A DNA stretch of 37,934 nt from Ectocarpus siliculosus (lineage: Eukaryota > Sar > Phaeophyceae > Ectocarpales > Ectocarpaceae): contig FN649730.1 of assembly GCA_000310025.1 (NCBI GenBank), positions 1,673,195-1,711,128 on the forward strand, written 5' to 3'. A program made the translations under genes and the position numbers. A model generated the notes under the pieces. It saw nothing but the letters and a program-made list of their open reading frames with translations. It was not told where the DNA came from and made no database searches. Shown in pieces: positions 16,848-31,926 of this stretch; position 1 is the stretch's first letter, and each line of letters opens with the position of its first letter.

Positions 16848-19800
16848 CTGCACAGGGAGCACCAGCTGCGATATTCAAAGCGATGTGACTGTTTCCCGGC
16901 AGGGGGACGTGTGGTAATGGAAACGACGCGCGCGTTCGACCCGACATCTACCCTGCAGGCCACCGATGATGACACATCAACCGTGTAACACCGATTAGTC
17001 TCTGATACGACGGCAAGAACGGAACACGGGTGAACCAATAGACATATTTCAACAGGAGAGCGTACTCTCAACGTGCCGTGCACCGCATCGTTGGCCTACG
17101 CACCTCATAGCCTTGCCCTCCGGGGCCGCACTCCGCGAGGCTCCTGTCGTACGGGCAGAGGAAGAACACCCGCAGCTTTCGCGTCGCAAACCCCTTGCCC
17201 GTCCTCTTCCCGTCGACGCACCAGTTCCGCAGGGTGGCCGACCACTGCTCGAATGACCTATCTTTCTCCTCAAGGGGCTTCGCCCGGCTCTCGGGGGCGG
17301 GGAGCACGCACACCAGGCGGGGGATCGGCCACCTGAGCGTTCCATCGAAACAGACAGAAGGGCCCTGGCGTTACATGAAGGATTCGCATCCACAACATGA
17401 ACTTCTGCCCCCAACCTCTGAGGGTTGGGTACCACGGGACGATGTACAAGTAGCTTGAGTGTAGGCGGGGTGTTGTGCGGGCAACATTTAGCCACGCGTT
17501 TCCGATAGACAGGGCACCTAACGCTATGTATTAAATACTTGTACGAACAACATGCATTCGAACCGAACATACTACATGAGAACTCACCGTAGGAAGGCCA
17601 CGTCCTGCCTCATGCTTCTATCCATCATGAACTTGACGTTCATCTGGTCCCTCAGGACGTCCACGATACGCTCCAACAAAGCCTTGTGGTCACTGTCCGA
17701 AGAGATAACTGTCTCCTCGGACTCTCCACTACGGACAAGGCCAAGGCCGGGGAACCCGTACTTGTGGTCGTTGATAAGCTCGTGAACCTGGTCGCCGATG
17801 TCTTTCAGAGCCGTCCTCGCACTATCATCGTCGGACACGTTTCCCCTTGCATGGCATTCAATCCACGATGTTCCATCAATAGCCCGAACCTCGTACAGCA
17901 ACACCAAGTGGTTCTTGAACGCAAAACACACGCCTCGCTTCCAGCACGCCTTGATACGCCCCTCCCCGCGCCCACACCACGCCAGCAATCGAGGCACCAG
18001 CCCCGGGGGCACAGCATGTGCCCCAACAAGCTTCAGCTTCTGCGAATATATCGCACTTCCCATCTTCAGTTCTAAAATCTTCCCTGGATCCACGTTCAGA
18101 CCAGCTTTGTTCGGTAGACAGCTTGCGACAACGTAACGGTCCGGCACGAACGCGTGCTGACCATCACGTACTCGATACATGAACCGGACGTCAAGCAAGC
18201 TACCCACCATCACCTCGACGTCAGCTTCGCTCATCTCCAGAGGCGGTGCCTCTTGGCTTGCCTCGCCCAAGTCCATGTCTCGAAGCCACAGAAACTTGAG
18301 GTAGTCTTTGCTCACCTCTCCCGCCTTGACAAACCGCTTGTGCTGATCTGTGAGTGTCAATAGCATTGGCCTCACTGACGTGCACGCCTCCATCGCTTCT
18401 TCCACCTTTGCTTGCTGCCGCGGGTCTACCAACCGAACGTCGACCACGCGGCGGACCAGATCAGCAAACCGGGACGGGTTCACGTGGATGATGAGGTCCG
18501 CTGCTGAAGCCGCAGCACCAATGCCCGTGTTATGTTGCTCCTGAGAACCTCCACCCCCGTCAACCCCAGTCAGAAGAATCGCGCCATGAGCTTCGTGTGA
18601 CTTGACAGCGGCGAGAAATATGCGCCGTGGTTCACCAGCCCGGCGAAATAAGTTGGAAACCCGAGAGAACATGGATCCCTTTTGCTTGGTAAAAAGCGAT
18701 ACGGCCTCCGAGAATCTGACGAAGCTTCGACGTTTCTTGGGGTCCCCCTCCCCAAGCCTTTGCGCCACCGCTTCTCGTGTCCTGCCGGAACCACGTAAAT
18801 CCGCGCCCCTACGAACAGCTTCCAGCGTTGCGATGGCTGGCAAATAAGGTTCCGGTACGACGCTCCTCACGGATGGGAATGAGTAGCCGTCGTACCCGTT
18901 GTAGGCAAGGTGCTCTAAACGCTGCTGAAGCAGATCAATATCTTGCCCGTCCGAGGAAGTAAGGTCCAGGGCAAGCAACTCTTCTTTCAGCACAACGCGG
19001 AGGGGTTGGTAGCGGGGGTTCCCCTTCAAATCCGTGGTGTGTCCCTCTCCCAGTTCTGTTTCCACACGGTCCTTGGCTGAGTCACATTCGCAGCGCAATC
19101 GCGTCATGATCTCTTCCACATCTGTTGGTCACGGAGAAAGATAGGTGTTGTTGGACGACGTAGAACAATGTCTGCATTGAGCATGGACACCGAGTGCTCG
19201 GACAGAGTTCAGAGGCAAGATTTTATGTGCGGTTGTGCTCGCACATGTGCAACAGAATCGACCAACGAAAACTGCTGGGCCACCAGCCGTTGGAAAAGCG
19301 TAAAACCCTACGGTGTCATATGTTCGAGAAAAACCCTACGGTGTCATATGTTCGACCCAGCCGCGGACATCAACTCTTAGCACCCGAAAAATTGAACTTT
19401 CAACTATATTTTCTGCTCAATGTGCCCTGCAGGTGTCTTGCGCAGGGCGCGTGGTAGTCCCCATAACTCCGCGACTCTTTCTTCGTTACGCGACGCAATC
19501 GTGTATTGAACAAGGTTGCCACTTACGGCGATTCTAGACCCAGCCGACCCCATATGAGCGGCACCATCGGCGATCGCACCCAACACGTTGTTGTTGAGGT
19601 AAAGTTACGAGATACGAAGTAGACGCTTGCCATCACATGACCTACATCGCAACAGTTCGCCCTCACGACCGACCTTTCTTGAAGCGATCCGTTCGCCTGG
19701 TGCACTCGGCCGCATTCTCTGCAAATAAGTCGGTGTGCGTTCCCACCAGCAGCACAACGGAACCCGGGACTCTGGCCTGCAGAATCTCAAGCCACTGTTC

Positions 19801-22800
19801 GAGCGCATCCTCCCGTGACTGCCCCTCCGTATATGTGAACATATCTACAACCAGAACGAAGAGAGCGCCTGGTGTAAGGAACATCTGGGCCGCGCGACAT
19901 CGGGGAGGCAGGACATCGGGGAGAACGGTCGTGGTTAAGTGCCCGTAAGTAGCGCATGTCATGGCGTGTGCCTCAAAGGAAAGAGAGGCCGACGACAGCG
20001 ACAGCCAAACATGTTACCAAACAAAAGCCTTCTCTTCATACACTTGTTCAGGTGTTTCCTGCGATGGTAAGATCACTGCTTGTTTTCACGTAGGATTCAT
20101 GATCGCTCCTACCTGGTGCGTGTCGTAGTATGCTCTCTGCCCAGCAAAATCCCACAGGCTGACGTCTAGCTCGACATTCGGCCCACTTCCTTCGTTGGTT
20201 GGGCCAGGTCCTAGCTTGATGTCCCGTATCTCCACGCCAACGGTGCGCTCCTCGGGTTTCGGACAGCTAGAGCCGAGTCGGTCTTCGAGTCGGGTGGCAA
20301 TGCTGGTCTTCCCTGCCTCGCCCAATCCAACCAACACAACCTTCAGGCGGTTGGACCATGCCCTGCCGTAGTCATCCAAGTCCCTGAGGAAAACAGCCGC
20401 GTGGGCCATGCCCTTGTTCATCACCTCGGCTGGTGGCTCCTTCCAAGGGTTGTTTTCGGTGCCGACGGTCACGTTTCTAGCCGCAAACCCTTCCGCCACC
20501 AATCTAGGAAACACTGACGAATACAAAGGGCCAAAAGGTGAATTGAAAACGTGCATGGTGTTTTTGAAACATCGAGAAATCAACTCTATTGGGAGCTGAA
20601 GGAAGCTGTGGTACAGTTGCGCCCTTGTGCATGCTGAACACTGTCACGTCTGCGGTTGTTGGACCCAGGGGGTTTGTGTTGAAAATAGGTCTTGAAACAG
20701 TACATGTGCAGCCTTTGTGGAGAACAGCTGTGACCAGCCATCGGAGGGATGTAGATGTGATCGGCGCCTCTTCCAACCAGCACAATGCGAAGAACTGTGC
20801 TGAGAGAATTACCGCAGGACCGTTTTTCTAGACGCCGGGGAATTTTAATAATGTAAAAATCATGTTCGTATGCCCGCTGCTGTGCTGCTAATGCAGGACA
20901 CATCCCCAAGGAACTTGGAGCTCTAACTAACCTGGAGCTGCTTTGGCTGGCAGGAAATCAGCTCATCGGTGAGGGGTGTGTCAAACGAAGTAATTGAAGT
21001 TACCAATTTTCAACTTTTCTAGACGGTTGGTCCTGCCGATGCTAGGCGGGACAAGATGTACGGATTTATTCATACAGGGATTTTCTTTCTAGAACTGTCC
21101 TTAGTGATATTTCTCCCTACTGCATTCTTGTGCAGGACCCATCCCCAAGGAGCTGGGAGCACTTAGTAGGCTGGAGAAGCTTTGGCTCCACCGCAACAAC
21201 CTCACAGGTGAGAGAATCGAAGAAAAGTTGAAATTTTTCTTGTTCACGAAATAAGAATTCTGCCGACGTACTTGGAGTCATAAAAGTTATCCCGCTAGTT
21301 CTGAAGTTTCGTGGACGCCAGCTAGTGGGCGGGACAGCATCTCCGGAGATCGAACATCAAGAACAATTCGAAATTCAATACTTTCCTTGGTTTGTTCTTT
21401 TGACTTGCTGCGTTATCTACAGGGCACATCCCACCGCAGCTAGGGAATCTGCGCGCCTTGGAGAGCCTCTGCCTCGATCGCAACTCTTTAGAAGGTGAGT
21501 TCAGGAACTTTATTTCGACTTCTCAAGAAGTGGTGTATGCATGAATCCTGCCGATGCGTCGGCGAGATTCATGTACCTTGTGTCAACATATTTAGAAAAT
21601 AAAATGGATTTCATCTCCTGGACTCACCATCTAACTTGTTGATGCTGAGATTGAGTCTCTTCAAGGCGCCAAGCTTCCCTAGCTCCGGAGGGATAAGACC
21701 TGCAAGCAGGAGAGCAGTACGAGAAAAACAGAGAATTGACTAAATGCTTCTCCGCCTACTCACGCATCGGCGTGATTCATGCACGCTGCTTCTGACGACT
21801 TCGAAATCTCACCTGAGAGGTAGTTTGAGTGCAGATATAGACGCTGTAGCGCAGTAAGCTTCCCTAGCTCTTCCGATATCGGTCCTGCATTTATGGCCAG
21901 TAACGAATACGAGCTGGGAATTAGTAGAGAGTGCCCCGGCTTCTGCACCAGTGCATGGACGCCAACTACATACACGGGATTCATGTTGAAAATTCATGGG
22001 ATTTTTTTTCAACACATCTAAACAGTGTCTCACCGCTTAGCTGGTTCTCGTAGAGGTATAGCTCTTGAAGCGCTGCGAGCTTTCCCAGCGCCGGCGGAAT
22101 GGGACCTGTAAGTGGAAGAAGGAAAACGGAGTGATGGTTGCGGGTCAAAACAAAAATAATGCCCCGGCTTCTGGACCAGTGAGTGGACGCCAACTGTAGT
22201 GGGTGGGACACGATCTACGTAGATCGAATATCTCGAAAAGAGAGAGCCGGGTGATTAAATTCTATTTCCTCCGCAAACGTATATTACTTGTTTGCAGGTG
22301 CGATCCCGGCGCAGCTCGGCGCTCTCAACAAGCTCGCGAGGCTCGACCTGTCCGACAACCAGCTCAGCGGTGAGAGACTGATAGAACTTGAATACTTTGT
22401 TAATTTTTCTCATAACGTGTTCATGTCCCCCGGCGGCGACGGGAAAATGGACGCCAACTAGTAGGCGAGTACGAAATTTCAGAACTCGAAAGATATCTTT
22501 TGCTCTACGTAATTTCCCTATGTATTTTGTACAGGACTCATTCCCAAGGAGCTGGGAGCGCTGAGTAAGCTGGAAAAGCTTTTGCTCGCAGGAAACCGGC
22601 TCACAGGTGAGGAACCGACACAGGTCGATCTGGATTCAAGGTGAATCCCGCGCACGCAGTTGGCGTCTACTCACGTGCATCAGCGAGATTCGTACACGGG
22701 ACTCGCCGCAAAATCGGTCGTGGAACAGTCATCAAATCACATGTTGACTCACCGCTCAGCTGGTTGAAGGAAAGGTAGAGCTTCTTCAGTGCTGAAAGGT

Positions 22801-25800
22801 GCCCAAGCTCCGATAGGATGGGGCCTGCAAGCGGACGGACGGAACGGAGTAGCTCAGCGGGACAAAATAAAACACTCCCCCGCTTTCTAGAACATCCGTC
22901 CCGACAACTAGTTGGCTTCCACGAAACTTCAGAACTAGCGGGATAACTTCGTCTGTACCCTGCCAAACTGCCCTGCGTTGAATCGTTCATCTGCAGGCCA
23001 TATCCCGCCTCAGCTCGGACAGCTTGGCGCCCTCCAGTACCTCTTCCTCTCCGGCAACAAGTTAGATGGTAAGTTGAACAGATCAAAAAGAGTTTTGTTC
23101 TTGCGAGTTCTGCCTGCATCAATCCCGCGTACGCTTCCTCTCCGGCAACAAGTTAGATGGTGAGTTGAACAGATCAAAAAGAGTTTTGTTCTTGCGAGTT
23201 CTGCCTGCATCAATCCCGCGTACGCAGTACGCGGGATTCATTGGTGGAATCAGGTCGAGAAAAATATCCTTCCCCACGACGCACTCAAATCCGCCATAGA
23301 TACTCACCTGTGAGCTTGTTACTGTGTAGACTGAGCACCTGCAGGTCCCTGAGCTGTCCTAGCAACGCCGGGATTTCACCTGGATGAATATGGAATGGAA
23401 AGAGGTTCGAAATAAAAAATGAAGAGTACTGCGAATCTGCGTAGATCTTGTCCCACTCATTGGTGGGATTCATCCCGGAAGTGTTTGTTTTGCAAACATC
23501 AAAAATTGCTTGGGCTCAATGACTTACCGCTTAGCGCGTTCCCGCCAAGGTCGAGTTGTTGCAGCGCTGCGAGGTTCCCGAGCTCCGGCGGGATGGGACC
23601 TGTAAGTAGGAGTACGATACAAATTAATCTGCTTTCTCTATTTTCAAGACAACCGATCTCGGTAGATCTTGTCCCGCCTACTACTTGGCGTCCTCTTGAA
23701 AATCGAGAGGCGGGATAATATTTCTTGTTTTTTGTCGCGCTTGATTTGTATCGCCCTCCTGCTCGCAGGCCCCATCCCGCGGGACCTCGGGAACCTCGCA
23801 GCGCTACAATACCTCAACCTTGGAAACAACGAGCTAAGCGGTGAGTTATGGAGCGCAACATGATATTTGCATGATATTTGCAAATTCGGAGGAGACAAAA
23901 GAAAAATCCCCGCGCTTTNNNNNNNNNNNNNNNNNNNNNNNNNNNNNNNNNNNNNNNNNNNNNNNNNNNNNNNNNNNNNNNNNNNNNNNNNNNNNNNNNN
24001 NNNNNNNNNNNNNNNNNNCCCCCCCCCCCCCAAACGCCAGACAATTTCCTATATAAACAAGTCTATAGTAAATCCAATATATAAAGTGGGCACATTTCAT
24101 GCAAGGGGGTAGTACAATCCACGTAGCCCCTGCTCCAGAGTGCCGCAGCCCGCAGCCGCGGTACCGTCCGTAGCAGAGGAGCGAGGGAGAGCGAGAGCTT
24201 GGGGAGAGTGGTCACGATGAGCACAGTCTCCGTGGGGATTCCTATCAACAACCCCCTTCGACAAGACGGCTTGGCTCAACCGCGTCTGCCGAGAGCGAGC
24301 GGATGGCATGGAGTTTGTTTGCTGCTGCGGACACAACTTCGGCGACGGTTCAGGAGTCGACGAGGGCACCGCCTTGCAGCATGAGGCTTCGCACAAGCAC
24401 GAAGAGTGAGTGTAGAGGAATGGGAATCATTTTGTGAGATTGCCTTGGTTGCATTATAGTATAATCTACCTCGCAGCAGCAGCAGCAGCAGCAGCAGCAA
24501 TAGCAAGAACAGCACACACAACAACCCACACCAAGGTTGGACGCAACCAAGAGTGCGTGAATGCGGAGCCCTCGCGATGCAACTGCCGTCGTGTTGTACA
24601 CACCAAACGTGGTTGTACTGCTGCCCGTGTAGCTGGCAGCGGCAGCTGCGTGTGTGTTGTGCTGCTTCCCATGTAACTGGAAGCAGCAGTAGAAGGAGCC
24701 TCAACAGCAGAGGCAGAAGCCGCAGCGGTAGCTGAGCAGCATGACAACTTGTGACAACGTTTGAGAAAAAAATGCGCGAAATGCAGACCGGCACCACCCA
24801 CAAGGCTGTGTGCCACGGGGATATTCGTGCCTCTGCAGAAGAACTGGCCTTTACATTTTGGTGTCCCCTGCCCTTGCCTGCCACTTTCCGCACGCCCATC
24901 GCATGCGGGCAGATCGCGTTCGCCTGTTGCGAAAATCGCCCAGAAGAATAGCAGTGGCCACTGGGGTTGCACCTCGTGCCAGCACTATTTCGGCTCCGGT
25001 GAAGGGCTGACCCAGCTTCATGTGAACCAGCACGAGAGGTCGACCGCACACATGTAAGGGCGATGGCCGTCGGTGTCCGCAGTTGCATTCTCGAGTAATT
25101 TGGACTGCTCACTTGTGCTTACCAACATTTCAAGACCTCGCAAGACCCGTTACTTTGTCTATCCTCGCCGCACGCATGTCGCGCAAAGTATCAATGCGTG
25201 CATGCAGCTTTGTCAATGTGTGCGAATGCGTCGCCTACTACGCAACTTGGCACAGTATGTACAGTAGAACGATTAGATCATTATTCCGTCTCTCAACGGC
25301 GGATCAATCAATATTTATTCACATCCGCAGGCGTGGTGCTGAAGCTAAGCGTCAGAGGAATACAATGCTGAGGTTTTAAACCGACGAGCACTACGGGCGG
25401 CGGGAAGGGGCCGAGGGACGTGATGGATAGCAGCGGTGGCGCAAGCAGTGATGTTGAGGTGGTTACGACGGGAGTTGCAGGCGGGCGTGAGGGCGGAGCA
25501 GGCGCGGGTAGCGACGCTGAGGTGATTGCGACGGGAGTTGCAGGCGGGGGTGGAGGCGGAGCGGGCGCAAGCAGTGACGTTGAGGTGCTCTCGACGGGAA
25601 TTGCAGGCGGGCGTGAGGGCGGAACGGGCACGGGTAGCGACGGTGAGGTGGTTGCGACGGGAGTTGTGAACGGGCGTGAGGGTTGTGAGGGCGCGAGCAG
25701 CGAAATGGATGGAGCTTTCTCCGACGCTGCACACGAGAGTGGTTCGACCGATATGGTGCGCGTCCAAAACCCCCTCCGCTGCGCGGGATTACGTCCGAAT

Positions 25801-28800
25801 GTTCGGGAGCGTCTTCTCCAACACTACCCAGCAGCTTTGCATACTGTCGTCAAAAAGGGGCTGTCGTGGGAGGCTCGGATAGACCCGAATGGCGTGGCTC
25901 TTTACGCCGTGGAATCCGTCTCCCGCGGCATCCTGAGCCCAGGTTGTGCTGGAGCAGTGGAAGAACCAGGAGGCACATGCGAGCCGTGTGTGGACATCAA
26001 GGGCAGTAAGGTTTACAGAGGTGAGACCACGTAGCGAATAAAACGCGAAATAGGAAGGCACAACTAGGAAGGCAAGACAATTTAACTGTCGCACCCTCAT
26101 TCCACCACACATGAACTTTTTTTTAATTGGATTGTTCCCTCTGCACCCTTTCCGTCTTGGAGCAGATGTGGTTCAACGATCATCGTTGGAGCCAGAAGAC
26201 TCAAGGTTGAAGCACTTTGCTCTAGATTTGTTGACTCCTCACCAGCAACGAGGCAGGCTGACGCGGTGGAAGAAGAAGTTCGAAGTGCAGAAACTGTACA
26301 CTTTGAACCAACTCAGGAAGTGCGCGGCTTTGCATGGTCGTGTTGCACTCGCGAAGAGTATCTTCATTTACATGGCAGACAATGACGTGAATGACATTCG
26401 AAGGTTGATGGCTCAAGCGCGGCGAGACGGCTTGTCGCTGAGTGGTATCATGCATAGGTTAGAGCAGGCGGTGAATGGCAAGTATAGTGCCAAAGGGTTC
26501 AGCGAGGATGAGTTTGACTTGGCAATACTGGAGGGGCTTCGGGGAGTGAATATTAAGTACCATCATCCAAGACAAATTGCTTTTAGTTGTGGATGGGTGT
26601 TGCACGTGGCGAAGGTGATTCCACCGCCGTAGGCTCATCGACAGCCCCTCTTCGGTATGTTGCCGGCTTGAGTAAGCTTGGAATAATGACGTTTCGACGC
26701 ATGGGTATGTGTCATTTGGTTGTGTCCTTTCGCCACATTCGACCGAGGTCAAATGTCGTGGACTTGTCGCAGAGGCTTGGAGAAGTTCAAAGCTACTTGT
26801 AGCTGAGGGGTTGTCCTCAAGCACTACTGCTGTACTTCAAGACTTGAAAACCAAATAAGAAGTGTCCCCAGCCCATCACAGCTTATTTCAGTACATGAAG
26901 TAGCAATCTACACCTTCCTAGTAACAAGGTCCTGCTTGCACGTCATGCCGTAAACACCACCACACGCAAGCACACGCAATGGAGAAGGAGAAAGCCAAAA
27001 GAAAGCCTGTACGAAAATATTCAAAAAAAAAAAACTTTTTTCACCCCCCTCCCGGGGGGGGGGGGGGGGGGTAGGGTTAGGTGTCGGAAAAAAAAAAAAT
27101 TGTGCGCCCTTGGCGCTTTCCGTACAAAACTTTCGTGGACGCCAACTACATACACGGGATTCATCCTGAAAGTTCATGGGAATTTTTTCATTGCATCTAA
27201 ACAGTGTCTCACCGCTTAGCTGGTTCCCTTGGAGGTACAGACTTCGAAGCGCTGCGAGCTTTCCCAGCGCCGGCGGAATGGGACCTGTAAGTGGAAGAAA
27301 TAAAACGGAGTGATGGTTGCGGGTCAAAACAAAAATAATGCCCCGGCTTCTGGACCAGTGAGTGGACGCCAACGCATACCCGGGATTCATCTTGAAAATT
27401 CATGGGAATTTTTTTTCAACACATCTAAACAGTGTCTCACCGCTTAGCTGGTTCCCGTAGAGGTGCAGATCTTGAAGCGCTGCGAGCTTTCCCAGCGCCG
27501 GCGGAATGGGACCTGTAAGTGGAAGAAGGAAGACGGAGTGATGGTTGCGGGTCAAAACGAAAACAATGCCCCGGCTTCTGGACCAGTGAGTGGATGCCAA
27601 CTGCGTTCGTTGGCAGGACCGTTTTTCTAGACGCCGGGGGATTAATTTTGTTTTCTCCCGCCAACTTCTTGTTTTCCCTTCGTCTGGCCGGCAACATCCC
27701 GCCAGAGCTAGGAAATGTCCGACAGCTGCAGAGGCTGTGGCTCAGCCACAACCACCTCACACGTACCTATTGATGGTCGGTTTTAATTTTTTAATCCATG
27801 AATGAATCTCGCCGATGCATCGGCGAGATTCATACACGAGACTCACGCAAAATCGGTCGGGAAAGGGCTATCAAATCACGTGTTGACTCACCGCTCAGCT
27901 CGTTGTTCGTAAGGTAGAGCGCCTTGAGTGCTGAAAGGTGCCCAAGCTCGGATGGGATGGGACCTGCAAGCGGATGGACGGAACGAGTAACTGAGCGGGA
28001 CAAACAAAAATAACCCCCCGCTTTCTAGAACATCGGTCCCGCCTACGCATACACGGGATTCATCCATGGAACCCGGTTTCATTTCTAAAAACTCGTGGTA
28101 CCTGTAAGGTTGTTGCAGTAGAGCAGTTGGTGACACGGGACAAAAAACAACAATCCCCCGGCTTCTAGACCACCTACTCGCCTACTGCATCGAACATCGC
28201 CGATGCGTGAATGGACACATAAATATGTTCGAGAAAAAAAAGTATCAAATTTCATCAGTCTCTCACCACTGAGCTGGTTGAAATACAGGTCAAGCACCGT
28301 GAGCTTATTTAGAGCGCCGAGCTGCGCCGGAATCGCACCTGCAGAAGAGTAACACATTAGCGGGGGATATAGAAATAAATCACCCGGCTCTCTTTATTCG
28401 GGATATTCGATCTCCGTAGATCTTGTCCCACCCACTAGTTGGCGGGACAAGATCTACGGAGATCAGTCGTCTTCAAAATAGATAAGCGGGTGGTTTTTGT
28501 ATTTCCCCCGCAAACATGTAATACTCTTCTACAGGTGCGATCCCGACGCAGCTCGGCGCTCTCACTAAGCTCACGTGGCTCGACCTGTCCAACAACGAGT
28601 TAGATGGTGAGTCCCGGAGACCCAACGCGAAATACTACTTCGACTCGCAAGAATGATAGGCATGAATCTCGCCGATGCATAGGCGAGTAGGCAGTCACGT
28701 TCTCGGGCTCGGCGTTTCTATTAGGCGGGAGAAATATTGTGTTGTTCCTCGTTAGGGCCGTAATTACTTCCTCATTCGCTATAGCACTGCAGCAATAATC

Positions 28801-31800
28801 CCTTTCGCAAAACCAGCTAATTGGTTCGTCTATTGTTTCCCCCCGATCAAGGTCAGGATGAATCCCGCCGATGCCGGCTTCCCGAAGGGACATACATACG
28901 CATAGATGTCTCAAATTTTCCCAGCTGCGGCGGGATGGGGCCTGCAGCAATGAGCTAATAATCCGGATTAGCGAAGAGTAAACACTGTTTCCTCCCGCCT
29001 CGTCTACAACTACTCGGCCGGTACAGCAGCCGATATTCCAGAGGGAATCGTCGGGACATTTTCGGAAGACCGGGGAGCCGGGAATGTACGTCAAATTCGT
29101 TGCCTATGTGGACATCTTGCGCTAACCAGGAGATACACCGTAGGAACTGGGGGATATGTCAGAGTTCGGAGAGAGCTGCATCTCAGCGACAAACAACCTG
29201 GCAAGGTGAATTATTGGACGTTGACTACACAACCCATACCTGATGAGGTGAGCACCAGAAAAACGAGATTGACTGCATTCCTAAACACAGAAGTTGTAGA
29301 GAGCAAAAACGAGGAGGGGTTATCTCATCTCGACCACAATTCGCAGTTTGGTCGGTCGACCACATCCATCTTACAGTAGAGGTCCCTGTTTAAGGCCGCA
29401 AATTTAAGGCCGGTGGCCCTGTTTAAGGCCGGTGAAATCGCCTGCCCCAAATGCCTTCCTTTTTAAGGCCGCACAGGACATAAAAAGGGGTGGTCCCTAT
29501 TTAAGGCCTGTTGCAGCCTCCTCCCACCCTATTTAAGGCCGGTTTTGGGGTGACGCACGCAGGTTCGGCCGCATTATTTTCAAGCCACAACACAGCAGCT
29601 CTCGACATCTCCACACACACAACACACAACAGCCTATTGTAGCGTACCCCTATCGACCCAACCAGTAGGGGCATACATGCCTTGTGCGGCTGGTGAGCTG
29701 TACACCAGCCCATGGACATGGGGATCATCGCGGCCACCAAGGTGATCTACAGGAGGGAGCTACTCGACGTCAAGGTGTCAACCATGCTCGTGGCTGATGC
29801 ACTGCGCGCCGAGGCCAAGAAGCGTAAGATGGTGGCTGGGACCAAGGGCTTGGCGGAGGGAAATCACCCCCACGTGCTGGACGCGGCAGATCTTCTCAAG
29901 ACCGCCTGGGACAGCATCACCCCCAGGACGATCGCCAGGTATTGCTTCAAAATAGTTCAAGTGCTGTCCGTTTTTTCCGTCTTCAAGTTAGAACCCGGTG
30001 TTGCATTTTTTTAGTTGTGTGCCTTCGCAGGGCTTGCTGCTATTATGTACGTGTCGCTGTAGAAAATACGAAATAATTTGACATCGCTCGACAACTCGTT
30101 CGCCGCAATGTATCCTCGTTGCTGGTGCCCGACGCTCACAATCTCTACTGCGTTTGTATCGCTGCTCTTCCCGCGTCCCGTCCACCAGGTGCTTCGTGAA
30201 GGCCAAGACCCTCCCGGAAGAGATGGAGGCTGCGCTGACGACCGTGCACGGGAAACAGAGGCAAAGCAGCTCGGCGGGCTCTGCGGGAGGGCCAGTGCAG
30301 GGGCGTGCAGACAAGGAGCCGGTGGACCTTCTCGCGGAGACCCTCACCAGCATGAGCTCACGGGTGCGTGAAGCACAGGAGCGGTCCTGCGGTGTTGACA
30401 CGGAATTGACAGAACTGTTGGCCACCCTGGGTATCACTGCCAGAGAGCCTGCCAATGCCGCCGCTGTGCGAGCGGCTGAAGTGTGGGCGACGGTGGAGGA
30501 CCAGCCGGATGTGGTGGAAGCCATGCAGCAGGACGCGGTGGACGAGATGACGCAGCTGCTCGAGGGCAAGCTTCTCGCAGAGGAGAGCTCGGACGACGAA
30601 GCGACGGAGGAACCCACGGCTCGTATGGCACCACCGCCGTACGCGGCAGTGTCGTCGCACTTCGGGGCTCTGGAAACGGCAGCAGAGGAAAGCGGCAACC
30701 ATGACGCCGCTTTCCATCTGCAGAAGGCCAAGATGGCGATGATCGCAGCACATACTTCGAAACCAGCGAGGCAGACGGACATGAGGCAATTTTTGTAAAC
30801 TCGATACTTGTAGGCGCATGGGGGGGGGGCGTAAGTTGAGTGGCTTTCCCGGGTCCGGTATTGTAGATCAGTTTCAACAGCTGTCACGGCAGAGTCTTCT
30901 CTGCCAATTTGGTCGGTCGGTCGCCCTTGATCGTATGCAGGAACACTCTTGTTTTTTCAACCATCGTGTGCCGTTGCTATTGCATGCAGAAGATGTTTTT
31001 TTTTTTGTGTGTGTGTGTGCCGTCGTTGTTGGACGGGTAAATATTAACATGTGCAACATATGTAGATCGTTGTAGGTTTTTGTGGCGTATCTACGTCCTC
31101 TCAAACTGAGCAGCATCAGCACGTAAGCAGCACATTTGTCGACCCTTCGTGAGTAATTTTTTTCATTCTATGGTGTCCTTGCCGTCCGTACTTTCACGTC
31201 TTCAATTTTCACGTGACACTCTGCTTTTCTGTCGTTTAGGTTGGTTTTGTGACCTGGACCACGACATATATGTTGACCAGCTACAGTAATGTACAGTAGG
31301 GTAGTCACCAAGAGGGAGGCACTTGGTAATTTCTGTTGTTATTACAGATTGGCGGGTAATAACATTTGGAAACGTGCAAACATCATTTGACACGCTGTGT
31401 CGTCATTCAGTACATACATACGTAGCAGTGCCATGTGGTGCACATCCAACGCGGCGCTGTGGCACTGTGAGTGAGTGATATACACCCCTGCTGGCTTTCA
31501 GACATGTTTGAACCGGCCCGCTTCCCGCATAGCCTTGAGTGCGCTGCACTATTCCTCAACAAGGCCGGTACCGGCCTTATTGAGGAATTCATAATCCTGT
31601 ATAAGGCCTGTACCGGCCTTAAACAAGGGCCGTTTCCAGTAAGGCCGGGTGCCCTGTTTAAGGCCGGTTTGTACCTTCCACACTATGCGGCCACCTCTAC
31701 TGTATAGACTCTAGGCGGAAGCACGTGCAAGCAGCGCATGCCAAACACCTTGGAGGTCGTTGTTCAGCAGGTCAAGCCGCACTACGCGGCCCTCGAAGTT

Positions 31801-31926
31801 GACTTCGACTCCAAACCATGTTGATAGCGCAGCATCCGTGTCCCAGTTCTCTCTCTTCCTCCAGCTAGCCCCGCGCGCCGAACGAAACAGGGTAACCAGT
31901 CCGTCACGATCCGTCATCGAAGCCAT
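16554..31926 (-). CDS. LRR-Roc-COR (ROCO family) GTPase gene, whole locus
   Basis: Gene-level entry. Constant exons, 5' to 3' on the minus strand: 31749-31926 (N-terminal cap), 20113-20513 (end of LRR domain and start of Roc), 19674-19884 (rest of Roc), 17588-19121 (COR), 17104-17332 and 16554-16847 (C-terminal region). They sum to 949 codons including stop, and each LRR exon adds exactly 24 codons. Ten intact sense LRR exons lie between (28338 down to 21628), giving a product of about 1190 residues if all are used. ROCO proteins are Ras-like GTPases with a COR dimerisation domain; in brown algae the LRR forms are proposed pathogen receptors. No kinase domain is present. The locus contains eight antisense LRR exons, a pogo-like element in intron 1, a 100-N gap and a foreign gene block, so whether it is expressed as one gene is uncertain. 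Confidence 0.85.
17104..17332 (-). CDS. ROCO gene, penultimate exon
   Basis: Begins with one base completing the split Arg codon from the COR exon and ends in phase 0 at a GTGCGT donor. It encodes WPIPRLVCVLPAPESRAKPL, a basic loop (DGKRTGKGFATRKLR) and VFFLCPYDRSLAECGPGGQG. The ordered strand-like segments VCVLPAP and RVFFLCPYD resemble the extra C-terminal domain of brown algal ROCO proteins. The function of this domain is unknown to me. Confidence 0.8.
17588..19121 (-). CDS. ROCO gene, COR-domain exon
   Basis: A 1534-bp exon with acceptor CAACAG upstream of 19121 (phase 1 in) and donor GTGAGT after 17588 (phase 2 out). The first third links Roc to COR (NPRYQPLRVVLKEELLALDL, YNGYDGYSFPSVRSVVPEPY). 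The COR core includes SKDYLKFLWLRDMDL, VMVGSLLDVRFMYRV and FVPDRYVVASCLPNK. Later parts hold KACWKRGVCFAFKNHLVLLY and VHELINDHKYGFPGLGL. COR mediates dimerisation and GTPase control in ROCO proteins. There is no stop or frameshift across 510 codons, so it is under coding constraint. Confidence 0.9.
19674..19884 (-). CDS. ROCO gene, second half of the Roc GTPase
   Basis: Starts phase 0 after a CCCAG acceptor with MFLTPGALFVLVVDMFTY, directly continuing the DTHQ end of the previous exon. It contains the G4 nucleotide-specificity motif in LLVGTHTDLF and ends phase 1 at AAAG/GTCGGT. The split codon joins cleanly to the COR exon (Asp-Val-Glu-Glu). The donor is weaker than consensus. Confidence 0.85.
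20113..20513 (-). CDS. ROCO gene, LRR C-cap and first half of Roc
   Basis: Encodes the end of the LRR domain (NNPWKEPPAEVMNKG, the usual capping motif), DLDDYGRAWSNRLKVVLVG, the P-loop GLGEAGKTS, and the G3 motif WDFAGQRAYYDTHQ at the donor GTAGGA. I chose the acceptor TTCGTCAG before 20513 because it gives phase 1, the only phase compatible with the 72-bp LRR exons. An alternative acceptor lies about 85 bp upstream, so the first residues are uncertain. The G1 and G3 motifs are intact, implying a functional GTPase. Confidence 0.88.
20897..20968 (+). CDS. LRR exon L1 (antisense to ROCO gene)
   Basis: 72 bp, acceptor ATGCAG, donor GTGAGG, phase 1 at both ends. It encodes one 24-residue LRR with core IPKELGALTNLELLWLAGNQ. 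Intact, but on the strand opposite to the ROCO gene, so it cannot enter its mRNA as arranged. Confidence 0.85.
21136..21207 (+). CDS. LRR exon L2 (antisense to ROCO gene)
   Basis: 72 bp, acceptor GTGCAG, donor GTGAGA, phase 1-1. LRR core IPKELGALSRLEKLWLHRNN. Intact and antisense. The closest neighbour in sequence is L8 (IPKELGALSKLEKL). Confidence 0.85.
21423..21494 (+). CDS. LRR exon L3 (antisense to ROCO gene)
   Basis: 72 bp, acceptor CTACAG, donor GTGAGT, phase 1-1. LRR core IPPQLGNLRALESLCLDRNS. Intact and antisense. A 32-bp near-palindrome follows at 21541. Confidence 0.85.
21541..21572. repeat. Near-palindrome at the L3/L4 strand switch
   Basis: ATGAATCCTGCCGATG followed by CGTCGGCGAGATTCAT; the arms match with a few mismatches. 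Same sequence family as the perfect palindrome at 27802-27833. Confidence 0.8.
21628..21699 (-). CDS. LRR exon L4 (sense)
   Basis: 72 bp, acceptor TTGCAG, donor GTGAGT, phase 1-1. LRR core IPPELGKLGALKRLNLSINK. In sense with ROCO and the closest sense LRR exon to the Roc exons. Confidence 0.85.
21813..21884 (-). CDS. LRR exon L5 (sense)
   Basis: 72 bp, acceptor ATGCAG, donor GTGAGA, phase 1-1. LRR core ISEELGKLTALQRLYLHSNY. Intact. Confidence 0.85.
22034..22105 (-). CDS. LRR exon L6 (sense)
   Basis: 72 bp, acceptor CTTACAG, donor GTGAGA, phase 1-1. LRR core IPPALGKLAALQELYLYENQ. The exon and about 100 bp of flank on each side are nearly identical to L14 and L15, which lie 5 kb away beyond the gap. 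Confidence 0.85.
22211..22226. repeat. Perfect 16-bp palindrome at the L6/L7 strand switch
   Basis: CGATCTACGTAGATCG, a copy of the GATCTxCGxAGATC module that also occurs at 21339, 23434, 23655, 28409 and 28451. Confidence 0.85.
22298..22369 (+). CDS. LRR exon L7 (antisense to ROCO gene)
   Basis: 72 bp, acceptor TTGCAG, donor GTGAGA, phase 1-1. LRR core IPAQLGALNKLARLDLSDNQ. Intact and antisense. It is a paralogue of L19 (sense) and L20 (antisense). Confidence 0.85.
22535..22606 (+). CDS. LRR exon L8 (antisense to ROCO gene)
   Basis: 72 bp, acceptor GTACAG, donor GTGAGG, phase 1-1. LRR core IPKELGALSKLEKLLLAGNR. Intact and antisense. Confidence 0.85.
22753..22824 (-). CDS. LRR exon L9 (sense)
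   Basis: 72 bp, acceptor TTGCAG, donor GTGAGT, phase 1-1. LRR core ILSELGHLSALKKLYLSFNQ. Paralogue of L17 including the intron flank downstream of the donor. Confidence 0.85.
22997..23068 (+). CDS. LRR exon L10 (antisense to ROCO gene)
   Basis: 72 bp, acceptor CTGCAG, donor GTAAGT, phase 1-1. LRR core IPPQLGQLGALQYLFLSGNK. Intact and antisense. Its 3' third is included in the 91-bp tandem duplication that follows. Confidence 0.85.
23043..23224 (+). repeat. 91-bp tandem duplication covering the end of LRR exon L10
   Basis: 23043-23133 and 23134-23224 are identical except for one base at the donor (GTAAGT versus GTGAGT). The second copy holds only the last 26 bp of the exon (23134-23159) plus its donor, without an acceptor. 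Confidence 0.9.
23212..23238. repeat. Palindrome at the L10/L11 strand switch
   Basis: AATCCCGCGTAC (23212-23223) and its exact reverse complement (23227-23238) are separated by three bases. Confidence 0.9.
23308..23379 (-). CDS. LRR exon L11 (sense)
   Basis: 72 bp, acceptor ATCCAG, donor GTGAGT, phase 1-1. LRR core IPALLGQLRDLQVLSLHSNK. Intact. Confidence 0.85.
23528..23599 (-). CDS. LRR exon L12 (sense)
   Basis: 72 bp, acceptor CTTACAG, donor GTAAGT, phase 1-1. LRR core IPPELGNLAALQQLDLGGNA. It forms a close inverted pair with L13 only 170 bp away. Confidence 0.85.
23655..23668. repeat. Palindromic module at the L12/L13 strand switch
   Basis: GATCTCGGTAGATC, imperfectly palindromic, followed by the conserved TTGTCCCGCCTACTACTTGG module. 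Confidence 0.7.
23769..23840 (+). CDS. LRR exon L13 (antisense to ROCO gene)
   Basis: 72 bp, acceptor TCGCAG, donor GTGAGT, phase 1-1. LRR core IPRDLGNLAALQYLNLGNNE. Intact and antisense. Inverted paralogue of L12. Confidence 0.85.
23919..24018. other. Assembly gap (100 N)
   Basis: Exactly 100 N followed by a run of 13 C, typical of a placeholder gap of unknown size. More LRR exons could be missing here. Confidence 0.98.
24217..25053 (+). CDS. Zinc-finger protein gene, two exons, likely frameshifted
   Basis: Exon 1 starts at ATG 24217 (MSTVSVGIPINNP). After a C5 run at 24252-24256 the good reading is in the next frame (FDKTAWLNRVCRERADGMEF, then CCCGHNFGDGS and ALQHEASHKHE) up to a GTGAGT donor after 24405. 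Exon 2 from 24787 (acceptor AATGCAG) joins in the right phase and ends with CTSCQHYFGSGEGLTQLHVN and QHERSTAHM. The C-x2-C...H-x4/5-H spacing in both parts resembles C2H2-type fingers. The frame either stops at TAA 25055-25057 or splices at AT/GTAAGG. The CAG microsatellite at 24474-24500 lies in the intron. The extra C means either a pseudogene or a homopolymer sequencing error. The gene lies inside the LRR array next to the gap. Family not recognised; it could derive from a transposon. Confidence 0.45.
24474..24500. repeat. CAG microsatellite
   Basis: About nine CAG/AGC units within the presumed intron of the zinc-finger gene. Confidence 0.85.
25423..26632 (+). CDS. Unknown protein with four 21-residue repeats, two exons
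   Basis: Exon 1 is 25423-26020 (ATG chosen; the frame is open slightly further upstream). It has four 63-bp tandem units encoding variants of ASSDVEVVTTGVAGGREGG, then an ordinary region (NVRERLLQHYPAALHTVV, GLSWEARIDPNGVALYAVES) ending at GTGAGA. Exon 2 runs from 26166 (acceptor GAGCAG, phase 1) to TAG 26630-26632 and is Arg/Lys-rich and helical (KHFALDLLTPHQQRGRL, LRKCAALHGRVALAKSIFIY, ADNDVNDIRRLMAQARRDGL). The family is not known to me; the dense conserved-looking helical region suggests a multi-copy, possibly transposon-borne, protein. It sits between LRR exons L13 and L14, so it interrupts the ROCO locus. Confidence 0.55.
25440..25692 (+). repeat. Four 63-bp in-frame tandem repeats
   Basis: Coding repeats within the preceding gene; each unit carries GACGGGAGTTGCAGGCGGG or a close variant. 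Confidence 0.8.
26640..27130. other. Gene-free spacer with homopolymers
   Basis: Contains A10, C- and G-runs (27042-27072) and a poly-A near 27090. I see no gene. It separates the inserted gene block from LRR exon L14. Confidence 0.6.
27213..27284 (-). CDS. LRR exon L14 (sense)
   Basis: 72 bp, acceptor CTTACAG, donor GTGAGA, phase 1-1. LRR core IPPALGKLAALRSLYLQGNQ. Nearly identical to L15 and L6, differing mainly in the exposed positions between the core leucines. Confidence 0.85.
27441..27512 (-). CDS. LRR exon L15 (sense)
   Basis: 72 bp, acceptor CTTACAG, donor GTGAGA, phase 1-1. LRR core IPPALGKLAALQDLHLYGNQ. Tandem duplicate of L14 with a repeat period of 228 bp. Confidence 0.85.
27595..27615. 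repeat. Inverted repeat at the L15/L16 strand switch
   Basis: TGCCAAC and GTTGGCA around a 7-base centre. Confidence 0.7.
27691..27762 (+). pseudogene. LRR exon L16, splice-defective (antisense)
   Basis: The coding part is intact (IPPELGNVRQLQRLWLSHNH), but the acceptor AG is CG (GGCCG/GC) and the last exonic base is C instead of G (ACAC/GTACCT). Probably not spliceable. Its upstream flank (27613-27640) repeats the flank left of L1 (20814-20843). Confidence 0.75.
27802..27833. repeat. Perfect 32-bp palindrome at the L16/L17 strand switch
   Basis: ATGAATCTCGCCGATG is immediately followed by its exact reverse complement CATCGGCGAGATTCAT. Confidence 0.95.
27892..27963 (-). CDS. LRR exon L17 (sense)
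   Basis: 72 bp, acceptor TTGCAG, donor GTGAGT, phase 1-1. LRR core IPSELGHLSALKALYLTNNE. Paralogue of L9. Confidence 0.85.
28102..28130 (-). pseudogene. LRR exon L18, 3' fragment only
   Basis: Only the last 30 or so bases of a cassette remain (QLLYCNNLT with a GTACCA donor); the first half and acceptor are missing. Confidence 0.6.
28267..28338 (-). CDS. LRR exon L19 (sense)
   Basis: 72 bp, acceptor CTGCAG, donor GTGAGA, phase 1-1. LRR core IPAQLGALNKLTVLDLYFNQ. This is the first intact sense LRR exon after exon 1. Confidence 0.85.
28409..28464. repeat. 56-bp near-perfect palindrome at the L19/L20 strand switch
   Basis: The arms start GATCTCCGTAGATCTTGTCC on each strand, match at 23 of 25 positions and meet at a central ACTAGT. 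Confidence 0.92.
28535..28606 (+). CDS. LRR exon L20 (antisense to ROCO gene)
   Basis: 72 bp, acceptor CTACAG, donor GTGAGT, phase 1-1. LRR core IPTQLGALTKLTWLDLSNNE. Intact and antisense. Inverted paralogue of neighbouring L19. Confidence 0.85.
28870..28941 (-). pseudogene. LRR exon L21, degenerate (sense)
   Basis: The acceptor CTGCAG and the start (PIPPQLGK) are intact. The rest is shifted by one base (LRHLCVCMSLREAG reads in the next frame) and there is no donor at the expected place. Confidence 0.6.
29130..29205 (+). pseudogene. LRR exon L22, degenerate (antisense)
   Basis: Bounded by CCAG and GTGAAT, 76 bp instead of 72. An in-frame TAG replaces the residue before ELGDMSEF, and indels shift the end that would read LHLSDNNLA. 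Confidence 0.55.
29374..31702 (+). mobile_element. Pogo/Tigger-like transposon in ROCO intron 1
   Basis: The ends read CAGTAGAGGT in inverted orientation, with TA on both sides (29372-29373 and 31703-31704), as expected for pogo-type insertion. Many TTTAAGGCCGG motifs lie just inside both ends as subterminal repeats. It carries the 3' part of a DDE transposase gene (29712-30798). The element ends 47 bp from the donor of ROCO exon 1 and is in the opposite orientation to ROCO. It is 5'-truncated in coding content, so probably non-autonomous. Confidence 0.8.
29712..30798 (+). pseudogene. Pogo-like DDE transposase, C-terminal part, two exons
   Basis: Exons 29712-29938 and 30189-30798 join in phase 2. 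The upstream in-frame codons give HQPMDMGII, the third catalytic Asp motif of pogo/Tigger transposases (QPxDxG). The joined frame gives LLKTAWDSITPRTIARCFVK, the typical helix after the catalytic core. The C-terminal 200 residues are acidic/Ala-rich, ending DAAFHLQKAKMAMIAAHTSK. A TGA at 29694-29696 lies just upstream, and the first two catalytic Asp and the DNA-binding domain are absent, so it cannot be a complete transposase. It may still be translated from ATG 29712. Confidence 0.7.
31749..31926 (-). CDS. ROCO gene, first coding exon (LRR N-cap)
   Basis: ATG at 31926 (MASMTDRDGLVTLFRSARGA) is followed by SWRKRENWDTDAALSTWFGV and GRVVRLDLLNNDLQ, the usual N-terminal cap and first partial repeat of LRR-ROCO proteins. 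The donor AAG/GTGTTT gives phase 1, matching the LRR exons. A CAG just upstream of the ATG could be an acceptor of a 5'-UTR intron. Confidence 0.85.

Follow-up and report, generated by a model that had tools for sequence, protein, structure and literature searches.

The leucine-rich repeat (LRR) exons of a ROCO gene, which codes for a likely immune receptor, in the brown alga Ectocarpus siliculosus lie on both strands. Analysis of the window, i.e., the whole 37,934-base stretch C5:1673195-1711128, and of related loci indicates that the LRR part of this receptor is probably built from single-exon cassettes, which would be duplicated and joined, blind to orientation, at a short symmetric core within introns by a candidate recombination activity. 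What this one genome shows directly is a single-exon unit with boundaries enriched at the core, its random orientation and spread between chromosomes, the more frequent breakage of antisense copies and a selection signature in those copies. All results come from a single assembly (189 Mb, 492 contigs).

Within the window, genome searches gave one Roc match and one LRRNT exon match, both on the minus strand. The Roc domain exon (E 7.7e-10, above the Pfam cut-off) defines minus as the gene strand, and exon 1, which we take to be an LRRNT-like cap, has 67 matches across the genome at E ≤ 0.01. The initial annotation had proposed Roc-COR exons in this place; Roc is borne out, while COR is weakly supported by a COR-B match, and a COR-A search of the genome found one place, on C17, outside the window gene. 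The frame of the gene is as follows:

31750-31926, minus strand: ROCO exon 1, presumed LRRNT-like cap (genome search)
20104-20520, minus strand: Roc domain exon (Pfam PF08477 and genome search)
17601-19128, minus strand: open stretch with weak COR-B match (Pfam, E 0.019, below the cut-off)

Both strands of all 37,934 bases were scanned for 72-bp units between AG and GT that have an open frame, begin and end within a codon and match the LRR consensus. Eighteen intact exons were recovered, all within 20897-28606, eight on the plus and ten on the minus strand; nothing else in the window passed. This independent scan reproduces the ten sense and eight antisense exons of the initial annotation, as well as its statement that the same split-codon phase at both exon ends keeps the frame in either orientation. 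Uniform 72-bp single-LRR exons upstream of Roc are what is expected of a brown-algal LRR-ROCO gene with shuffled exons. Such searches reveal no second, convergent ROCO gene to which the plus-strand exons could belong, because the sole Roc and LRRNT matches are both on the minus strand. As for an assembly artefact, another caveat raised at the outset, the single gap of 100 N (23919-24018) does not explain the mixed orientation, as the exon strand changes on either side of it and 17 of the 20 other loci described below contain no N at all. The LRR exons are listed here; intact ones come from the exon scan, matches between cassettes of the window from its self-comparison, and a whole-cassette relative is an exon with which both 60-bp flanks are shared at ≥85% identity.

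20897-20968, plus strand: antisense, intact
21136-21207, plus strand: antisense, intact; 11 whole-cassette relatives, 9 sense
21423-21494, plus strand: antisense, intact; 1 whole-cassette relative, sense (L009:3109)
21628-21699, minus strand: sense, intact; 8 whole-cassette relatives, 3 antisense
21813-21884, minus strand: sense, intact
22034-22105, minus strand: sense, intact; 15 whole-cassette relatives, 2 antisense
22298-22369, plus strand: antisense, intact; inverted match to the 28267 cassette, 81% over 239 columns
22535-22606, plus strand: antisense, intact; 2 whole-cassette relatives, both sense
22753-22824, minus strand: sense, intact; 5 whole-cassette relatives, 1 antisense
22997-23068, plus strand: antisense, intact; 3 whole-cassette relatives, all antisense
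23308-23379, minus strand: sense, intact
23528-23599, minus strand: sense, intact
23769-23840, plus strand: antisense, intact; palindromic with the 23528 cassette, 68% over 412 columns
27213-27284, minus strand: sense, intact; 13 whole-cassette relatives, 2 antisense
27441-27512, minus strand: sense, intact; 15 whole-cassette relatives, 2 antisense
27691-27762, plus strand: antisense copy, acceptor broken (genome-locus scan)
27892-27963, minus strand: sense, intact; 4 whole-cassette relatives, 1 antisense
28267-28338, minus strand: sense, intact; 1 whole-cassette relative, sense
28535-28606, plus strand: antisense, intact; head-to-head palindrome with the 28267 cassette, 76% over 354 columns
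28913-28941, minus strand: sense exon fragment (copy census)

Two intron motifs of the window occur at 33 and 92 places of the genome, their reversed controls at none. Twenty further stretches fetched by these motifs make up, with the window, 21 loci, covering 33/33 and 85/92 of the motif places (7 not fetched). They hold 285 exon copies, 255 of them intact in a scan with a slightly different score rule. Intact exons were found on both strands in 19 of the 21 loci, the exceptions being L019 without an intact exon and L020 with three, all on the plus strand. The strands are close to balanced in L003 (10 and 9), L016 (11 and 10) and L011 (8 and 8); L007, L015 and L017 each have a single intact exon in the opposite orientation. 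Along the arrays, neighbouring exons share their orientation in 131 cases and differ in 133 (shuffled mean 131.2, sd 7.7), i.e., neighbour orientation is random. An LRRNT match lies inside 14 of the 21 loci and a Roc match near only four (window, L004, L005, L017), and the assignment of all 21 arrays to ROCO genes is in part an inference. Beside another core array, near L005, lies a Roc exon (C11:4822532-4822945) with 93% identity to that of the window; the two genes may be a recent pair with reshuffled LRR parts.

The mobile unit was delimited by an all-against-all BLAST of the 21 arrays (blocks ≥120 bp, ≥85% identity). Among 705 homology blocks, 629 contain exactly one exon, 68 none and eight two; 347 are direct and 358 inverted, and 625 connect different loci. 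Both 60-bp flanks are shared at ≥85% by 387 of 32,381 exon pairs, 350 of them across different loci, and the neighbours are related as well in just 30 of the 387. As blocks are mostly one-exon, of mixed orientation and mostly between loci, and neighbours are seldom related, single exons with their half-introns appear to be copied singly and either way round. Some copies are nearly or fully identical, with 58 blocks at 97% or more and two, over 252 and 243 bp between contigs, at 100%. For 105 of the 255 intact exons no whole-cassette relative was found; of the 150 that have one, 115 have at least one in the opposite sense. Donor halves of introns rarely resemble acceptor halves (16 pairs, vs 573 and 398 pairs within the two kinds); single-linkage clustering of half-introns chained 308 segments into a single cluster and did not enter the counts. 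Exon-less modules such as GGCGTCCACGAAACTTCAGAACTAGCGGG also occur between core words, in both orientations, with 28 of 28 places in the window or the fetched loci.

The cassettes meet at a short word in the intron. We used ACGCGT, ATGCGT, ACGCAT, ATGCAT and ACTAGT, and the longer ACTGCGT, ACGCAGT, ATGCAGT, ACTGCAT and ACTGCAGT. From 264 adjacent exon pairs, 251 introns were usable (13 were dropped for a length outside 60-450 bp or for N), and 192 of them contain a core word, mostly in mid-intron, vs 272 of 1,255 shuffled introns. Ends of homology blocks fall within 8 bp of a core in 44% of cases, compared with 6.3% of positions (6.9-fold enrichment), and within exons in 4.6%, compared with 31% of positions (0.15-fold). 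When blocks confined to introns are considered, the 0-4 bp that follow a core centre hold 20.9% of 4,424 ends, vs 3.5% at random. Since the core pattern came from these very introns, break contexts were also listed free of any pattern: words such as CCGACG, GTATGC and GCGTCC are 6-9 times enriched at 551 distinct break points, and of 40 break points printed at random about 22 were at the core by eye, a minority at TTCTAGAA. The cores of the window, from the junction listing and given by position rather than strand, are:

21537-21542: ATGCAT, tail-to-tail intron, first of two
21554-21559: ATGCGT, tail-to-tail intron, second of two
21762-21767: ATGCGT (read on the minus strand), tandem junction
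22457-22462: ACTAGT, tandem junction
22654-22660: ACGCAGT, tail-to-tail junction
22907-22912: ACTAGT, head-to-head junction
23222-23228: ACGCAGT, tail-to-tail junction
27372-27377: ATGCGT (read on the minus strand), tandem junction
27600-27606: ACTGCGT, head-to-head junction with the broken 27691 copy
27815-27820: ATGCAT, tail-to-tail junction with the broken 27691 copy
28434-28439: ACTAGT, head-to-head junction

Each half of the core travels with its half-intron. Donor-side halves end in ATG in 30/64 tandem and 34/64 tail-to-tail junctions, acceptor-side halves in 6/64 and 7/62. Halves with central GC pair freely: 93 ACG-ACG, 91 mixed and 32 ATG-ATG joins compare with about 89, 99 and 28 predicted. 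Joins of ACT with ACT number 22 vs 4.5 expected, a count perhaps inflated because some head-to-head junctions may copy one ancestral junction, whereas the four direct words combining ACT with ACG or ATG total 46 vs 42.5 in shuffles; for ACGCGT the figures are 93 and 12.7. Roughly, half-cores pair as they would if their central two bases (GC or TA) had to agree. A strict pattern for the adjoining arms, TCCCGCC-N8-GGCGGGA, matched just seven places (14 rows, counting both strands) against 2 for the reversed control, which shows the arms to be less strict than this.

Other arrays of the same genome served as controls. Six LRRNT-headed arrays of the same 72-bp exons were picked for the absence of motif places, not for orientation; three (L028, L029, L030) have a Roc match nearby. 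They hold 37 intact exons in gene direction and one, in L028, against it, their self-matches are 61 direct and none inverted, and they contain 1.5 core words per kb; the core arrays have 6.0, and their introns after shuffling 1.8. The NB-TPR family is also called shuffled (PMC11378527, section 15). Five loci around NB-ARC matches, taken as this family with their TPR exon content assumed, were considered as a second example of mixed orientation and rejected, nearly all self-matches being direct (302 to 3). At ≥80 bp these loci gave 144 direct and one inverted match, the window with L001-L018 133 direct and 141 inverted. Because the motif-less arrays and the NB-ARC loci are almost entirely one-way, the mixing of orientations is tied to core arrays and not to LRR exons or tandem arrays at large.

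What becomes of the antisense copies was followed in the 18 of 21 loci to which a gene strand was assigned; L010, L019 and L020 were omitted for want of one. The strand of L007 was taken from L008, that of L012 from a Roc-like open frame judged by eye, and that of L015 from a head about 6.5 kb past the array. Sense copies were intact in 151 and broken in 15 cases, antisense copies in 97 and 35 (Fisher p = 7.7e-5), with 27 of 55 copies found by nhmmer only (E < 1e-3, assigned loci) scored as broken without inspection. The totals, 166 sense vs 132 antisense (p = 0.056), are near those of even arrival.

Positive selection has been described at LRR positions 14, 16, 18 and 19 in brown-algal ROCO genes (PMC11378527, section 11). 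In our exon pairs, which are not independent of one another, 1,246 of 1,653 nonsynonymous differences fall on these four codons, the diversifying selection known from LRR-ROCO genes. For 24 pairs with flanks 1.2% apart, divergence is 12% over the twelve bases of the four codons and 1.1% over the remaining exon. Below 4% flank divergence, all 64 single-base changes at the four codons are nonsynonymous (0/64 synonymous vs 19% expected; 16 two-base codon changes were set aside), and in the next divergence bin five of 171 are synonymous. These counts, and the lack of a clear rise in synonymous change at the four codons, disfavour blind hypermutation relative to selection. The four-codon excess is ten times the flank value in sense and antisense pairs alike for the youngest bin (13 and 6 pairs), while the older bins show a smaller one for antisense-antisense pairs (2.4 vs 4.7 and 3.9; 11 and 16 antisense pairs).

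These results recast the proposal, made in the initial annotation, of a standing, invertible exon reservoir inside one locus. Mixing of orientations holds, with random neighbours and frequent opposite-sense relatives, and extends over arrays genome-wide instead of a single locus. Inversion would be only part of the process, since what moves is a cassette of one exon, which is copied as well, mostly between loci. Most antisense copies (97 of 132) are indeed intact, and with the selection signature they share at the four codons they support the claim of recent use; the store itself looks transient and not standing, because antisense copies are broken more often. We take antisense copies to have been in sense use until recently, with most of them being lost or flipped again while still unbroken.

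Several observations weigh against the joining of cassettes at a core. Cassettes were not always moved whole, with 197 and 48 (245) exon pairs sharing one flank only. We derived the core pattern by eye from introns that were then used for the counts, and 59 of the 251 introns lack a core so defined. Elsewhere in introns lie 51% of block ends, and the base-by-base profile around the 551 break points has no sharp consensus. ACGAGT alone, with 17 vs 9.6 in shuffles, somewhat breaks the two-base rule. Core and intron length are confounded, because the motif-less arrays also have longer introns. Whole-exon dN/dS, for which a comparison of antisense and sense exons had been proposed, is 1.95 in antisense, 1.35 in mixed and 1.15 in sense pairs; plain relaxation would not predict this. 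There is no drop in antisense pairs, and as this measure points the other way, relaxation in antisense copies is read from the older bins only. A second class of homology break points lies at TTCTAGAA, possibly another site of joining. Among the 6-mers of core-array introns, TCTAGA is the most enriched (130 vs 7.9 expected; e.g., window 20814-20844 and 27613-27643).

Finally, the genome offers few matches to a recombinase: one partial serine resolvase (PF00239, on C16, about 3 Mb from the nearest array) and one partial tyrosine integrase (PF00589, on C76). No match to either family lies beside any array, in a search that intron-split or weak matches can escape. Elements with a tyrosine recombinase (DIRS/Ngaro) are listed in a study of Ectocarpus transposons, in whose examined passages the term ROCO is absent.

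Ordinary microhomology repair of breaks would need no dedicated enzyme: a palindromic core fits both ways round, and end joining or template switching would reshuffle the arrays and recreate the word. Core words are indeed short palindromes or near-palindromes, the arrays are dense with short introns (medians 136-194 bp), added bases occur at the core, as in ACTGCGT, and many ends lie outside it. We nevertheless regard this explanation as unlikely. Identity past the central GC is not needed, given that 91 of 216 cores are ACG/ATG mixtures, near the number for free pairing; single-cassette units with identical copies on other contigs are unlike random repair; and the NB-ARC loci, also repeat-dense, are almost without inverted matches.

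About as improbable is that the cassettes are a set of non-autonomous transposons with terminal inverted repeats (TIR), or miniature inverted-repeat transposable elements (MITEs), that captured an LRR exon; their ends would be GGCG..CGCC and their target duplication the two bases GC. Copies have been multiplied and scattered, and the common cassette ends are short inverted repeats (CGTTGGCG, CGTAGGCG / CGCCAACG, CGCCGATG). Of 115 pairs of empty and filled sites, ten were printed (one exon, both flanks ≥120 bp), and one apparent pair among them (L008 vs L005) has a possible 2-bp GC on both sides; such pairs were not counted as insertions, because the same common halves may have joined independently. 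Insertions outside arrays would be expected of such elements, whereas the motif places within the window and fetched loci are 28/28, 33/33 and 85/92 (7 not fetched), the first of these, for GGCGTCCACGAAACTTCAGAACTAGCGGG, weakening a genome-wide MITE as the cause. The rare likeness between donor and acceptor halves is also unlike true TIRs.

Still less probable is a programmed somatic rearrangement, in which the assembly would record one state of loci reshuffled in each individual. It has been proposed for brown algae by Zambounis et al., as cited in section 15 of PMC11378527, according to which somatic recombinant loci have not been reported. Random orientation, a symmetric site and kept frames would fit. 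Against this, cassettes differ by substitutions and antisense copies break more often, both requiring residence in the germ line, and 17 of the 20 fetched loci were assembled without N. Ordinary tandem duplication and unequal crossing-over, with inversion between homologous inverted introns, fit the NB-ARC loci and the motif-less arrays and are very improbable for the core arrays, as they neither join unlike halves at a core nor scatter single, randomly oriented cassettes across contigs.

Under cassette joining, the reading we prefer, a cassette would comprise one 72-bp LRR exon, the 3' half of the preceding intron and the 5' half of the following one. Cassettes would meet within introns at the symmetric core (ACGCGT, ATGCGT, ATGCAT, ACTAGT or similar), often between CGCC and GGCG arms, where a recombinase- or transposase-like activity may cut and join, heeding the central two bases. 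Because the core is symmetric and every exon splits its codon alike at both ends, a cassette could be joined either way without harm: sense copies would be spliceable, antisense copies presumably silent in the intron and unused in mRNA. A duplicating step, acting in the germ line over generations, is also suggested. Random insertion and inversion would then feed new LRRs to the receptors, and selection on the four codons would keep the useful sense ones.

Exon shuffling of brown-algal ROCO genes is already known: Teng et al. 2024 (PMC11378527) described, in the sections covered here, 72-bp single-LRR exons in one phase (called phase 2), and our exons share their length, phase, shuffling and selection at the same four positions. 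The main text of that article does not contain the terms antisense, orientation, reverse or opposite, and the sections examined mention no junction site. An open-literature search likewise returned exon shuffling and neither antisense exons nor a junction site, though Zambounis et al. 2012 may mention antisense exons; in the searchable literature, random orientation combined with a core was not found. Among the closest known systems is the plasmid R64 shufflon (Rci, sfx), in which segments in either orientation, with a recombination site between them, vary one protein. When sfx sites are made symmetric, excisions arise along with inversions (PMC11852207), and a symmetric core should likewise permit both. 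Both orientations of segments and a recurrent site at their junctions are found here too, the former as related cassettes at different places of one genome and not as one locus in two states. The shufflon is bacterial and does not involve splicing; its site is asymmetric (12-bp arms, 7-bp core), and a single locus holds its four segments. The core arrays, by contrast, involve many loci, introns, copying and a hypothetical enzyme. In lampreys, LRR modules beside the immune receptor gene VLR stand in mixed orientation and serve its diversification; they are copied in somatic cells via coding identity and are not known to carry splice sites, while in the core arrays boundaries lie in introns and change looks germ-line. 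Integron gene cassettes are single-gene mobile cassettes arrayed at a short site, mostly entering one way and needing IntI; in the core arrays orientation is random, and an enzyme is only postulated.

Some further features of the window were noted. A 92-bp direct duplication (98.9% identity) at 23043-23225 includes an LRR exon end and its donor. An insert of about 3 kb at 24019-27080 adjoins the N gap and a poly-C run and contains direct repeats at 25438-25703; the sole Pfam match of its open frame 26165-26629 is a weak WY domain (E 0.036, below the cut-off). In the intron after exon 1, a DNA transposon-like insert at 29375-31710 has TTTAAGGCCG-rich inverted ends and a weak DDE_1 match (E 0.0017, below the cut-off).

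We tentatively consider, as a possibility that goes further, a site-specific recombination system, working at a symmetric core under a rule of two-base overlap, which would excise, copy and reinsert LRR exon cassettes either way across brown-algal receptor loci, perhaps induced in some cells or by infection. Such a system would be a eukaryotic, intron-based machine for receptor diversification, like a genome-wide shufflon. If the enzyme exists, it would represent a new eukaryotic route of exon shuffling, one blind to orientation because the site sits in introns. For brown algae, which have no known adaptive immunity, these results offer a defined unit for the diversification of receptors and a candidate for its site, and they let arrays with and without the core be compared within one genome.

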